From: an uncultured Lachnospiraceae bacterium
GTDB lineage: Bacteria; Bacillota; Clostridia; Lachnospirales; Lachnospiraceae
Assembly (NCBI GenBank): GCA_946615865.1
Contig: CAMOIJ010000012.1
Span: forward strand, 1-55,245
Direction of reading: 5' to 3'
Length of the DNA: 55,245 bases
Made by a program: the position numbers and the translations under genes. The notes under the pieces were generated by a model. The model did no database searches. It was not told where the DNA came from and saw only the letters and a program-made list of their open reading frames with translations. Of this stretch, positions 8,392-30,058 are shown in pieces. The number at the start of each line of letters is the position of its first letter. Within the stretch, counting starts at the first letter, position 1.

Positions 8392-9222
8392 ATGGGCAAT
8401 ATATTCAATGTTGTCGCAGTGCAGAAAAAGGCATATGAAACGTCGGAGCAGAACATGGATTCCGTGCGTCAGATGCTGGACGCCTATGATGGAAATCTCT
8501 GTACAGGGCCGAAGATTGATTTCCTGGTGCTGCCTGAGATATTCACCTGCCCCTATGACAACAAATGCTTTCATGAGTTTGCGGAGAGCGATGGAGGAAC
8601 TGTTTACAGATTTCTTTCGGAGCTGGCGCGTGACAGGCGGATGTATGTGATAGGAGGCTCTGTTCCGGAACTGGATGACGGAAAACTATATAATACATCT
8701 TATGTGTTTGACCGAAGCGGAGCCCTGATCGGGAAACATCGCAAAGTTCATCTGTTTGATATCGATATAGAGGGCGGGCAGTATTATAAGGAATCAGATG
8801 TGCTTTCTCCCGGAGAGAAAATGACGGTTTTCGATACGGAATACGGGAAGATGGGAGTATGTATCTGTTTCGATATCCGTTTTCCGGATCTATTCACCTC
8901 GATGCGTGATGCAGGTGTGAAGATGGTCTTCGTACCTGCGGATTTCAACATGACCACCGGACCGGCACACTGGGAGATACTTTTCAGAAGCCGGGCCCTT
9001 GACCAGCAAATCTTTATGCTTGGATGTGCGGCTGCCAGAGACGAGAATGCTTCCTATGTCGCTTACGGGCACAGCATTTTGACGGACCCGTGGGGGAGAA
9101 TTGTGAAGGAACTGGGCTCAGAGGAGGGAATTCTTGCTGCGCAGATTGACCTGGCCACTGTGGAGAGTGTCAGGCAGCAGATACCGCTGCGGCAAGTGTA
9201 TAGTTCGTATTCTTGGGAGTAA
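8392..9222 (+). CDS. carbon-nitrogen hydrolase (nitrilase/omega-amidase family)
   Basis: A cytosolic amidase of the nitrilase superfamily, 276 residues. The Glu-Lys-Cys catalytic set is complete: LVLPEIF (Glu49), KHRKVHLFD (Lys118) and CICFDIRFPDLF (Cys159). The sequence around the lysine and cysteine is closest to NIT2-type omega-amidases, which hydrolyse alpha-ketoglutaramate and alpha-ketosuccinamate; this narrower call is an inference. AGGAGG stands 6 bases before the ATG. The gene is monocistronic. Downstream there is no simple terminator but the hairpin repeat array at 9265. Confidence 0.85.
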   Translation: MGNIFNVVAVQKKAYETSEQNMDSVRQMLDAYDGNLCTGPKIDFLVLPEIFTCPYDNKCFHEFAESDGGTVYRFLSELARDRRMYVIGGSVPELDDGKLYNTSYVFDRSGALIGKHRKVHLFDIDIEGGQYYKESDVLSPGEKMTVFDTEYGKMGVCICFDIRFPDLFTSMRDAGVKMVFVPADFNMTTGPAHWEILFRSRALDQQIFMLGCAAARDENASYVAYGHSILTDPWGRIVKELGSEEGILAAQIDLATVESVRQQIPLRQVYSSYSWE

Positions 9223-9264
9223 ATGATCTCAATTCATACCGGGTGTCTTTCTTGGCGATGCAAT

Positions 9265-9623
9265 CGAGCCCTTAGAGGTATCTCTAAGGGCTCTAATACA
9301 GCAATAGTAGGCAGGAGCCTTCCTGTCTGACCAAACCGAGCCCTTAGAGCTGCCTCCAAGGGCTCTAATACAGCAATAGTAGGCAGGAGCCTTCCTGTCT
9401 GACCAAACCGAGCCCTTAGAGCCATCTCTAAGGGCACTAATACAGCAATCAAGACCACGGTATCACCGTTTGACCAAACCGAGCCCTTAGAGCCACCTCT
9501 AAGGGCTCTAATGCAGCAATCAAAGCCACGGGTATCACCGTCTGACCAAACCGAGCCCTTAGAGCCACCTCTAAGGGCTCCATTACGGCAATCACCCCCA
9601 AAAAGGCTCACTAAACAAAAAGA
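9265..9623. repeat. tandem array of five 71-72 bp paired-hairpin repeats
   Basis: Unit starts are 9265, 9337, 9409, 9480 and 9552, giving spacings of 72, 72, 71 and 72. Each unit opens with a 12-bp stem, GAGCCCTTAGAG paired with CTCTAAGGGCTC around a 4-base loop (perfect in units 1, 4 and 5, one or two changes in units 2 and 3). Then come a conserved TAAT(A/G)CAGCAAT, a second smaller hairpin and a conserved TGACCAAAC. The second hairpin has two forms: an AGGA/TCCT-type stem in units 1-2 and an ACGG/CCGT-type stem in units 3-4. Unit 5 is truncated after its first hairpin. The array fills the 477-base gap between the convergent amidase and aspartate kinase genes. Its function is unknown. Confidence 0.9.
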
Positions 9624-9671
9624 AAAAGAGAGCGCCGTCTCTGCTGATAAATCAGCAGGCGCAGCGCTCTC
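9617..9671 (-). terminator. terminator of the aspartate kinase gene
   Basis: Two nested stems, GAGAGCGC/GCGCTCTC (9628-9635 with 9664-9671) and CTGCTGAT/ATCAGCAG (9641-9648 with 9651-9658). On the minus strand they are followed by a T-rich run (9617-9627). Confidence 0.8.
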
Positions 9672-9699
9672 GCTATTCGTGAATAAATTACATTAGAAT

Positions 9700-11025
9700 T
9701 TACAAACTCTGCCTGAATTCATAAATAGCCCGGATCGCGTCCTCGTAGCGCTCTTCGGGCACGCCGATCAGGAGGTTGAGTTTGCCGGCGCCCTGGTTGA
9801 TGGTGCTGATCTCGATCCCCTTTGAAGTGAGTTTCTCCAGAACACGCACGTTTGCGTCGCTCGATTCCGTTGCTTTCTCGCCGGTCACAGCGATCAGAGA
9901 CTGATTCTCGCGAAGGCCGATGAAATCGGGATGCAGTGTCTCGCGGATCTCTTCAAAGAGATCTTCCTTGCAATCATCCAGAAGGTCTTTGCGGATCACA
10001 AGCGTGATCGAGTCGATGCCGGTAAGGCAGTATTCGAAAGGCAGCGCGCGCTCTTTCAAAATATCGAGCATCAGCGCGCTGAATCCCGAGCCGTCACTGA
10101 CCATGACCTTTTCAATCTGGATCACGGACATTCCCTTGCGGCCGGAGACGCCGGTCACGGGGTTTTTGATAACGCCGGAAGGAAGGTGGCGAACGATCAT
10201 GGTGCCGGCGTCTTCCGGACGGTCCGTGTTGCGGATGTTGATCGGGATCTCGAGTTCTGAGGCTGAGAGAACCGCGTCTGAGTGGAGCACTGACGCGCCC
10301 ATATAAGAAAGAGTCCGAAGTTCCCGGTAACTCATGTAAGAGACGGTTTCGGGGTTCTCGACAATGCGGGGGTCTGCCGCGTAAAGCCCGGAGACGTCGG
10401 TCCAGTTCTCGTAGAGATCAGCGCCGACCGCGCAGGCCGCAAGGCTTCCTGTGATATCCGAGCCGCCGCGCTCGAAGGTATGGATCACGCCGCTCATGTC
10501 CGATCCGTAGAAACCGGCGATCACAGCGCGGTTCAGCGGCAGGAGAGAAGCGCACATGGTGCGCGATGTCATCGGACCGTTCAGGTGCCCGTCCTGGTCA
10601 AAACAGACGCACCATGCAGGATCTACGAAGGTAAAACCGAGATATTTGGCCACTATTTTGGCAGTCAGATATTCGCCGCGGCTGGCGGTGTAGTCCCGCA
10701 TCGGCTCAGTCCTGAGCGACTGTTCGAGGATCTCGAATTCCTCGTCGAGGGGAAAACTGATCCCAAGGCCGTTTATGATCTCGCGAAAACGCATTTTTAT
10801 CTGCCGCAGCTCAGCGGCAAAAGGCTCGCCGGCTTTCGCTTTCTCATACAGGTCAAGGAGAAGGTCTGTCACTTTAATATCATCGCTGAATCTTTTCCCC
10901 GGCGCAGAAACGACGATAAACCTTCTGGCCGGATCGCTCCGAACAATGTCGCTGATCTTGCGGACCTGGCCGGCGTCCGCGACTGAAGTGCCGCCGAACT
11001 TGGCGACAACTATGCGCTCCTTCAT
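9700..11025 (-). CDS. lysC: aspartate kinase (aspartokinase)
   Basis: Phosphorylates aspartate at the head of the lysine, threonine, methionine and diaminopimelate pathway. The 441-residue protein opens with VVAKFGGTSVADAG, the kinase nucleotide-binding motif. It continues with a region around GGSDITGSLAACAVGA and a WTDVSGLYAADPRIV segment diagnostic for aspartokinases, and it ends in two ACT-type regulatory repeats (one including the NINQGAGKLNLLIGV segment). The start at 11025 is chosen over one 33 bases upstream because GGAGGG precedes it at the right distance and the protein then begins MKERIVVAKFGG. It is a single-gene unit. No lysine riboswitch fits in the short leader before the upstream terminator at 11099. 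Confidence 0.93.
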   Translation of the reverse strand: MKERIVVAKFGGTSVADAGQVRKISDIVRSDPARRFIVVSAPGKRFSDDIKVTDLLLDLYEKAKAGEPFAAELRQIKMRFREIINGLGISFPLDEEFEILEQSLRTEPMRDYTASRGEYLTAKIVAKYLGFTFVDPAWCVCFDQDGHLNGPMTSRTMCASLLPLNRAVIAGFYGSDMSGVIHTFERGGSDITGSLAACAVGADLYENWTDVSGLYAADPRIVENPETVSYMSYRELRTLSYMGASVLHSDAVLSASELEIPINIRNTDRPEDAGTMIVRHLPSGVIKNPVTGVSGRKGMSVIQIEKVMVSDGSGFSALMLDILKERALPFEYCLTGIDSITLVIRKDLLDDCKEDLFEEIRETLHPDFIGLRENQSLIAVTGEKATESSDANVRVLEKLTSKGIEISTINQGAGKLNLLIGVPEERYEDAIRAIYEFRQSL

Positions 11026-11098
11026 GATGATCCCTCCATGAAATAGAATATGAGGCAATTATAACATGAACAAACGGCCTTCGGGGGCGATATGCAGT

Positions 11099-28090: not shown

Positions 28091-30058
28091 TTACTCTGAT
28101 GTTTCTATATTGATATGCTCTCTGAGGAATCCTTCGGGATCCCAGTCTTCAGGGATCTCATGCTCGAAACGAAGATCCAGTGTGACTTCTCCATCAGGAG
28201 TCTCGATCCGGTACATGAAGAGAGCGACATCTTCGGTGGATTTGCGCATTTTCCCGGTGCCTGCCATCGACAGGAAATAGACAGTGTTGTCTTCTAATAA
28301 GAACTGCGCGCGGCCCGTTTCTACGGCAGGCTCTATATAGTTCCCGCGGTCATTCTCATTTTCAAGGGCATAATCGATCCATTCTTCATAGCCGCCGAGA
28401 TCCTCAACAGAACTGTAAGCCAGATAGTTAAGATCGAGCTGCATCAGAGGATCGCCGTAACCGCCGTACTCACCGATGCCGAAAGCGGCGAGATTCTTGT
28501 AAAAATTTCTGCTGTATTTGAGATCACCGAGATCGGAAACATCGATCTCCGCTGAGCAGTTGTTAGGGCTGTTGTAGACGCGCGATTTGGTGAACAGGTG
28601 TCTGCTCGCATCTATGGCCTCGAAATCCTCTGTATGGAAAGTCAGCATTCCGTAGAGATTTGAAAGAGCTTCTTTACCATCCGCGACTTCGTCTCTTTCG
28701 CACCGGCACACCGCAATAAAGGCGGATCCCAGCGGCTTCTGCTCAAAGGAATACACATCGAGGATCTCGCGGCCGATACTGTCTTTATAAGTGACCGTCA
28801 GGTATGTTACATAGTGGTCAGCAACTGCGGCCATCTCTATTTTGCCAATTTTACAGTCATTGTAATTGTCCTTGGAGTCAGAATCCGGATCAGTAAAACC
28901 GCGGATCACCGCTTCGAAGAATTTGCCCTGATCAGCCAGCTGTGGAGGAAGCAGGATATCCGGCATGCCGTAAGGATTGGCGTCTTCGGGATCGGCGTAC
29001 ATGATCGTATAGCCAAGGTCTTGGTAAGAGTCCGTGTTCATGTAACCGAGAGTGATCCATGTAGGATACACGCTGCTGTAGAAGAGCTTCTTTCTCTCAT
29101 CCGCCGGCTGCTCCGCAGTCCCGAATAAGGCTTCCGGGGCGATCACACACAGTTCATTATATCGGGCAGAATCTCCGGACTGTTCGTAGGAAGCAATATA
29201 TTTCGGCGTGTAGAAGTCGCTGTAATCGTATCCGTAGTCTGCCAAAATATCGCTTCCCGAATTTCCTTTCCCGCTGTCATCGCCGCCGACAAAGACGGGC
29301 GGATCGACCGGAATGTTGTCCGGGCCTGTAGCTGCATTCCTTATGAAGAAGAATGTGCCTGCTGTAATTAAAATCGTAATGACGATTACGAGAGAAAGAA
29401 TGAGAACAGGGTTTCCTTTACTGCGAACAGCCGGTTTAGCCTGCATTGATTTGCGGACGCTCTCGTAGGTGGAAGTAGCCTTTTTGACACCGGCGGATAC
29501 TGCGGAACGGGAGCGGCTTGCGCCGCTCTTTCGCCTGAAGCGTGACCGGCTGCCGGAGTTTACGCCTGACTGGGTGCCGGAGCCCGTATTGCCTGCATAG
29601 CTGGTGGGGCCTTGCCCGCTCAGGATATCCCAGGCTTCGCTGCGTCTGGAAGTCCTGTTCGAAGCATGGCTCGCGACGGGACGGGAGCTGCGGCTGCCTG
29701 TCCGATTGAAGCTGCTGCTTGTGTGACCAGAGCTGCTGCCTGTCTGATCGGAGCCATTGTCCTTTCGTTCGATCTCAGTGCCCGGTTTCTCCGGAAGCGC
29801 GCCGGTGAGCTGCTGATCTGAGACGTAAGGCACCATGCCGGCTTTCCACAGGAAACTGCGGGTCTCTTTGGATACCTGTAGAGAAGTTCCGTCGAGGCCC
29901 ATATTGGGGGCCATGAGTTTGCGCTCCCAGGCCTTGGATTCTTCGTCTCTTAAATAGGACGGATCCTGCCTCGAAACAGATATATCTGTCAGATCCTCAT
30001 ACGGCCATCCGTTCGTATTCATTTTTTCTGAATAGTTCGCGTCTCGATCTTTTTCCAT
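28091..30058 (-). CDS. single-span membrane protein with large extracellular domain, unknown
   Basis: 655 residues, starting at 30058 where AAGGGTG stands 8 bases upstream. Residues 1-90 form a conserved-looking cytoplasmic part (YLRDEESKAWERKLMAPNMG, FLWKAGMVPYVSDQQLTG). Residues 100-210 are Ser/Gly/Arg-rich low complexity, basic near the membrane. Residues 217-239 are the one membrane span. The remaining about 415 residues should face outside by the positive-inside rule. I recognise no family for the outer domain. The low-complexity linker may span the cell wall region or act as a phosphorylation target for the kinase at 17697, but nothing here shows that. Confidence 0.72.
   Translation of the reverse strand: MEKDRDANYSEKMNTNGWPYEDLTDISVSRQDPSYLRDEESKAWERKLMAPNMGLDGTSLQVSKETRSFLWKAGMVPYVSDQQLTGALPEKPGTEIERKDNGSDQTGSSSGHTSSSFNRTGSRSSRPVASHASNRTSRRSEAWDILSGQGPTSYAGNTGSGTQSGVNSGSRSRFRRKSGASRSRSAVSAGVKKATSTYESVRKSMQAKPAVRSKGNPVLILSLVIVITILITAGTFFFIRNAATGPDNIPVDPPVFVGGDDSGKGNSGSDILADYGYDYSDFYTPKYIASYEQSGDSARYNELCVIAPEALFGTAEQPADERKKLFYSSVYPTWITLGYMNTDSYQDLGYTIMYADPEDANPYGMPDILLPPQLADQGKFFEAVIRGFTDPDSDSKDNYNDCKIGKIEMAAVADHYVTYLTVTYKDSIGREILDVYSFEQKPLGSAFIAVCRCERDEVADGKEALSNLYGMLTFHTEDFEAIDASRHLFTKSRVYNSPNNCSAEIDVSDLGDLKYSRNFYKNLAAFGIGEYGGYGDPLMQLDLNYLAYSSVEDLGGYEEWIDYALENENDRGNYIEPAVETGRAQFLLEDNTVYFLSMAGTGKMRKSTEDVALFMYRIETPDGEVTLDLRFEHEIPEDWDPEGFLREHINIETSE

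Follow-up and report, generated by a model that had tools for sequence, protein, structure and literature searches.

A tandem cluster of dispersed REP-like palindromes in a Lachnospiraceae bacterium, with a PD-(D/E)XK-like protein as candidate partner

Interspersed palindromes of the BIME and ERIC type form mosaic palindrome clusters near genes, and a cluster of palindromes near genes is also the subject of this study. It is a tandem array in a DNA stretch of 55,245 nucleotides (contig CAMOIJ010000012.1 of assembly GCA_946615865.1, from an uncultured Lachnospiraceae bacterium), which we call the window. In contrast to BIME and ERIC, units of a single type follow one another head to tail in the direct arrays described here, with some two-type junctions (loci L026 and L193). 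The enzymes that have been linked to palindromic repeats of bacteria are the RAYTs (REP-associated tyrosine transposases, where REP stands for repetitive extragenic palindrome), according to passages of PMC3116915, PMC2817692 and PMC3733652.

In the REPIN-RAYT systems, as outlined in parts of PMC3116915 and PMC2817692, short palindromes are dispersed between genes and sometimes form ordered tandem clusters, as they do here. As far as these passages go, paralogous enzyme genes also lie beside their own repeat type, with repeats that flank the gene and are inverted in several cases, again as in our genomes. Pseudomonas SBW25, for example, appears in passages of PMC3116915 with three RAYTs, each by its own REPIN cluster. 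The parallel with SBW25 is close, yet the enzyme differs, being a Y1 enzyme there and PD-(D/E)XK-like here, so that our repeat does not belong to the REPIN-RAYT family. Further differences are the missing GTAG-type head, the common occurrence of regular tandem arrays of ~50-75 nt, and the Lachnospiraceae host. The GTAG- and CGTC-tagged REPs described in sections of PMC3733652 share with our arrays the location between unidirectional or convergent genes near 3' ends, and tandem clusters that include flanking DNA. They differ by their tag, which is absent from our 70-72-nt unit. In 45 aligned core units no unpaired GTAG or CGTC stands at the stem end; the core is flanked by GACCNAAC-like and TATTACAGCAA-like sequence, and the complement of the latter is TGTAATA instead of GTAG. 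The available main text of PMC3733652 mentions 'Firmicutes' and 'Clostridi' nowhere. CRISPR and TIGR (for TIGR-Tas, an excerpt of PMC12045711) likewise combine a regular array with a nuclease-like gene, but differ in having unique spacers, which in CRISPR stand between identical repeats, whereas the spacers within one of our arrays are near copies.

The window array belongs to a palindromic, REP-like DNA repeat that is dispersed in the genome and is clustered in tandem here. Searches by BLAST and with a covariance model of 45 core units (A1, R1) detected 35 units of this family, called GAG, at 13 places in its own genome (G000), one of which is the window array. The family occurred in 5 of the 62 genomes of the genus, including its own, and in 1 of 397 family genomes, which was again its own; these searches scored part of the candidates, and zeros are no proof of absence. 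The sequence-only reading, made from the DNA letters of the window, had listed among its options a family of repeats distributed over the genome and had proposed a covariance-model search of this genome and its relatives. The search returned just such a dispersed, multi-genome family and not a single copy in a single strain. A sister family, GTG (GTGCCC...GGGCAC, arms TGCCG/CGGCA), has a period of 70; it gave at least 95 matches in its own genome, both strands counted (96 of 953 candidates scored), and matches in 8 of the 62 genus genomes. Named genome contigs scanned for a GAG pattern yielded 17 stretches, all in four Lachnospiraceae metagenome-assembled genomes. In several species, GTG and GAG units were also seen to abut in one gap (L026, L064, L192, L193), which looks as if arrays attract each other. 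Our main interpretation, to which we give a probability of about 50%, is that this palindrome family has a dedicated nuclease promoting its copying or rearrangement, and that the window array is a by-product between two gene 3' ends.

The candidate nuclease is an unnamed protein of ~350 amino acids with a PD-(D/E)XK-like C-terminus, which gives the earlier idea of a protein-binding array a concrete candidate. Five of six divergent arrays lay upstream of its gene or of a PF12784 gene. A relative (52% identity) was encoded beside two GAG units at a contig end (C43, 184-1290, minus strand), and this protein is the likely partner of the window array. Genome G003 repeats both pairings, and relatives in other species adjoin arrays of quite different sequence, with periods of 72 nt (G035 and G001), 71 nt (G077 and G062) and 61-62 nt (G031, G062 and G001). 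We counted tandem arrays with a 40-110-nt period at loci fetched for the protein only, with loci and controls of ~2-6.5 kb. An array was present at 39 of 74 loci, C-terminal-only relatives included, versus 1 of 40 matched same-contig controls (p 7e-9). Five loci that had prompted the idea or been fetched for their arrays belong to the genus set of 16 and are excluded from the 74; at L378 the array lies ~1.7 kb from the gene. By group, the counts were 8/11 for full-length members of the genus (9 with a 40-nt array), 10/21 for C-terminal-only members of the genus, 8/13 for further relatives and 13/29 at the family level. A hand count in the 55-80-nt band gave 8/11, 3/21, 6/13 and 8/29 for the same groups, versus 0/40 in the controls. 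As yardsticks, arrays of 40-110 nt stood at 3/25 aspartate kinase, 0/8 Y1 and 1/10 PF12784 loci. The last of these led us to reject PF12784 (PDDEXK_2) as a general partner, although a GTG array lies upstream of such a gene in both G000 and G003 (L219:3795-4802 and L226:3423-4478). The PF12784 protein beside the GTG array repeats AEGR, twice in G000 and six times in G003.

A close relative of the ~350-residue protein (≥44%) was encoded in 5 of 8 repeat-bearing genomes versus 2 of 54 others, and 117 of the 397 family genomes sampled had homologs at E≤1e-20, mostly as C-terminal matches. Moreover, the array period class tracks the protein tree: it requires 11 changes against a shuffled mean of 16.3, and none of 200 shuffles was as low. 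This test used a quick method on 31 rows with an array and a detectable open reading frame (ORF), among which some near-copies remain; the orthologs L226, L237 and L053, the 40-nt case L279, and L319 and L321, which have no ORF, were left out. Hairpin potential was clear in only part of the arrays (6/12, 8/13 and 2/10 at shuffle p≤0.1), the single control array was also positive, and not every protein-associated array is a clear palindrome. In G134 the array is confined to the neighbourhood of its gene, save for one weak match; hence only some lineages have arrays that spread in trans. We also noticed relatives of the candidate nuclease with 63-nt tandem arrays unlike GAG and GTG (L367 at G000 C10:1-5000, L375 and L376), also in its own genome, and at L367 and L375 the arrays on the two gene sides are inverted. 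At L369 (G000 C1:116500-121000) and L374 (G032), 62-nt arrays of GTTGGGCACTG-type units stand beside a C-terminal-only relative. A literature search on palindromes, REP/RAYT, nuclease and Lachnospiraceae, covering titles and abstract openings with subscription journals and preprints outside its scope, returned no arrays beside this protein.

The C-terminus of PDC-S68 is matched by the C-terminal ~100 residues of all 15 members examined, and that of PDC-S69 by those of 10 of the 15; both are phage-defence candidates in PADLOC. The PDC-S68 models span 1202-1273 positions, whereas our protein has ~350 residues and an N-terminal part of its own. For that part structure matches were coiled-coil-like, many with an rmsd near 9-10, and no fold was assigned. 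A PHROGs search gave nothing significant. Matches in phage (3 records) and plasmid (1 record) sequences were partial and C-terminal only, and one exact repeat pattern found 0 contigs among the IMG/VR viral contigs; a phage origin of the repeat was rejected on these grounds.

The defence-like C-terminus raises the alternative that the arrays are operators, by which a nuclease-like protein, perhaps of a defence or addiction system, represses or times its own gene, while dispersed copies act as decoys or were spread by slippage or recombination. Among 33 loci with an array and an ORF, the array lay ≤300 nt 5' of the gene in 19, only ≤300 nt 3' in 7 and only farther away in 7. The 19 upstream arrays agree with operators, as does the match between period and protein tree. 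However, operators would not be expected 3' of the gene or on both sides, where three pairs were inverted, two direct and one ambiguous, and they leave tens of dispersed units with a preference for gene 3' ends unexplained. We therefore regard operators as an unlikely explanation.

A Y1 transposase (IS200/IS605 or RAYT) moving REP-like repeats or miniature inverted-repeat transposable elements is an improbable alternative, in which the nuclease link would reflect shared variable regions. The location bias is REP-like, as in sections of PMC3733652, and its own genome contains three Y1_Tnp matches. Yet no unit stood near the 10 Y1 loci of G000 and G003, within ~3 kb per side at most where the contig allowed in these incomplete genomes, and hence none of these Y1 genes was flanked by the same palindromes; Y1 was rejected as partner. 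Furthermore, a Y1 gene was present in 25 of 41 genomes while the repeat was found in two of those, tandem arrays were absent from the eight further Y1 loci mentioned above, and shared variable regions fit poorly with arrays at 1 of 40 same-contig controls.

The gene context of the arrays was biased. The 63 arrays in six genomes occupied 30 tandem, 24 convergent and 6 divergent gaps, with 3 undetermined, whereas array-free gaps of ≥100 nt were tandem in 45, convergent in 10 and divergent in 25 cases. Divergent gaps were thus depleted (6/60 vs 25/80, p 0.002) and convergent gaps enriched (24/60 vs 10/80, p 0.0002). These counts rest on genes called by a codon-usage script instead of a gene finder and treat sister-species copies separately; ten loci at contig ends or in sister copies were left out (L024, L054, L059, L061, L062, L064, L065, L066, L192, L204). 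Its own genome alone had 10 tandem, 8 convergent, 2 divergent and 1 undetermined. Hence, arrays favour gene 3' ends, the same bias as reported for REPs in sections of PMC3733652.

The window array itself lies in a gap of 477 bases (9223-9699) between convergent genes at 8392-9222 (plus) and 9700-11058 (minus), as first read. A tandem-repeat scan of the window gave a period of 72 and a score of 402 for this array, which extends over 9265-9592 and consists of five units starting at 9265, 9337, 9409, 9480 and 9552 (spacing 72, 72, 71 and 72):
9223 to 9264, plus strand: decayed older unit, a spacer-like left flank (CAATTCATACCGGGTGTCTTTCTTGGCGATGCAATC), recognised by its likeness to the spacer of array L023 and near-identical in the G003 and G032 gaps
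9265 to 9336, plus strand: unit 1, stem 9266-9293, spacer hairpin 9308-9329
9337 to 9408, plus strand: unit 2, stem 9338-9365 with one mismatch, spacer hairpin 9380-9401
9409 to 9479, plus strand: unit 3 (71 nt), stem 9410-9437 with one mismatch, spacer hairpin 9457-9469
9480 to 9551, plus strand: unit 4, stem 9481-9508, spacer hairpin 9528-9541
9552 to 9592, plus strand: unit 5, truncated beyond its CATTACGGCAAT box, stem 9553-9580, no second hairpin by eye

In each of units 1-4 the folding energy lies below that of dinucleotide shuffles (z -3.6 to -5.7); together with the tandem score, these values imply that the array is not a chance product, and the five-unit array of the sequence-only reading was thereby confirmed. 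In each unit a 12-bp stem closes a 4-nt loop and is followed by a TAATACAGCAAT-like box and, in units 1-4 only, by a spacer of 21-22 nt and TGACCAAAC. The conservation claimed earlier holds in part. The first stem, GAGCCCTTAGAG/CTCTAAGGGCTC, pairs fully in units 1, 4 and 5 and with one mismatch in units 2 and 3; the TAATACAGCAAT box is kept exactly by units 1-3 and deviates in units 4-5, the last of which lacks TGACCAAAC. Positions 9223-9258 are 83% alike over 36 nt to the full spacer of array L023; because this looks like an old spacer, the array probably once reached further upstream.

The same reading had further claimed that the second hairpin changed between units 1-2 and 3-4 while keeping its pairing, as a sign of selected structure. 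A second hairpin can indeed form in units 1-2 (AGGA/TCCT) and in units 3-4 (ACGG/CCGT), and the three distinct spacers of the window had shuffle p-values of 0.015, 0.06 and 0.08. In a hand alignment, however, the paired columns of the two spacer types are offset by about one, and unit 5 has no such hairpin. Across 57 distinct family spacers from its own and related genomes, gathered by a pattern requiring a GACC-type box behind the spacer, the mean z was +0.11 and only 2 of the 57 had p<0.05. We therefore rejected second-stem covariation for the family: units 1-2 and 3-4 carry two different spacers and not paired substitutions in one stem, and the second hairpin is a local feature.

In the first stem of GAG the signal of two-sided pair change is modest and mixed. 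Two-sided cells numbered 9 against 4.0 in shuffles (reached in 2 of 500), and the covariation score was 0.085 against 0.059 (0 of 500). In contrast, a control slid by +1 scored higher (0.115), pairs with a two-sided change were no better than shuffled (3 vs 2.2), and pairing was 88.5% versus 87.4%, with pairs on the loop side often broken. The GTG alignment offers clear two-sided changes: at its pair 17-33, 21 of the 48 representative units have C-G and 13 have G-C, and 38 of 48 are standard where 24.4 are expected. The 48 were kept from 94 distinct units as more than 5 differences apart, hand-chosen from best-strand rows. Selection on structure is thus modestly supported for the first stem, well supported in GTG, and absent family-wide in the second stem. 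Stem symmetry could also be explained by DNA-level conversion between the arms.

Stable stems, two-sided pair changes and the excess of convergent over divergent gaps would also fit an RNA element, that is, transcribed hairpin arrays selected as RNA for protecting mRNA 3' ends or insulating convergent genes. Such near-symmetric palindromes, however, look the same as RNA or DNA, no U-run follows them, and the sister species have one unit or none at this site. The sequence-only reading had named an mRNA 3' protector, which the preference of arrays for gene 3' ends would fit. We consider this RNA role to be improbable.

Copy numbers varied between species. The orthologous gap contains one unit in G003, one in G032, and none in G079 and G077. 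In the G079 gap (L163), by eye, the end of the hydrolase gene seems to have been lost to a deletion and replaced, the frame running into the old 3' flank of the unit and ending at a new stop. Other shared loci had 3 vs 1 units (L021/L059, near a contig end), 7 vs 2 (L022/L061), 6 vs 1 (L053/L069), 4 vs 1 (L190/L200), 2 vs 1 and 1 (L027/L206/L201), and 1, 1 and 1 (L029/L066/L197). Including the window's site, numbers differed in 6 of the 7 shared loci counted (model counts). Two contigs end inside arrays (L024 at C43:1, L025 at the end of C59); both ends match the single G003 locus L053, and hence arrays are probably where the assembly breaks, so that the copy numbers are minimum values. The inner units of the window array have spacers unlike the local flanks. 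Changing copy numbers, and units within one array that are near copies of one another, are what passive tandem repeats without a partner would produce by slippage. Dispersal to 13 places, a spacer length of 23-24 nt in all 57 family spacers across arrays with differing spacers, and the protein association with its tree signal nevertheless make a purely passive origin very improbable.

The surroundings of the array have the following features:
8392 to 9222, plus strand: left neighbour, carbon-nitrogen hydrolase (PF00795, E 1.3e-58)
9700 to 11058, minus strand: right neighbour, aspartate-kinase-like with AA_kinase and ACT domains (PF00696, E 1.7e-29; PF22468, E 2.8e-8)
9608 to 9680, minus strand: intrinsic-terminator-like hairpin and U-run of the kinase gene, outside the repeat, recognised by its fold and tail UUUUUCUUUUUG

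The kinase hairpin folds at -31 kcal/mol (z -4.25) and resembles sequence in the G003 and G032 gaps; the consensus terminator scan did not flag it. A multi-hairpin terminator, also among the earlier suggestions, found little support in the array. No T-run follows the main stems of the units, where TAATACAGCAAT-like boxes stand instead, and the scan gave two weak minus-strand matches, which include the unit 3 spacer hairpin, where shuffles average 2.6. Rfam 15 gave 0 matches in the window at the gathering score, and an E-value search gave only sub-gathering matches, nearly all of miRNA type. An ORF of 125 amino acids (9234-9611, minus strand) spans the array; it is probably spurious, as a 72-nt repeat keeps the reading frame of its own accord, and such ORFs may get annotated as false proteins. 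Two further short tandem repeats lie at 2125-2176 and 29710-29754 (periods of 6/18 nt and 21 nt).

In the mechanism that we favour, the C43 protein would bind the palindromes via its N-terminal part and would nick or cut them. Repair or replication at the break would then copy, spread, lengthen or shorten arrays. The window array, for which this analysis showed no effect on its neighbours, would be mainly a tolerated by-product, retained where harm is least, between two gene 3' ends. More broadly, and tentatively, Lachnospiraceae may possess a REPIN-RAYT-like system built on a PD-(D/E)XK-type family resembling TnsA and homing nucleases, in which each member has its own array with a period set by lineage. 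In some genomes arrays would move off in trans and settle at gene 3' ends, the window array being such a colony. If this is true, a second, unrelated enzyme family with arrays of co-varying period would point to more than one origin of REP-like systems. The finding gives a defined candidate protein-DNA pair, and with homologs spread so widely over the sampled family genomes the question is probably tractable in cultured relatives.
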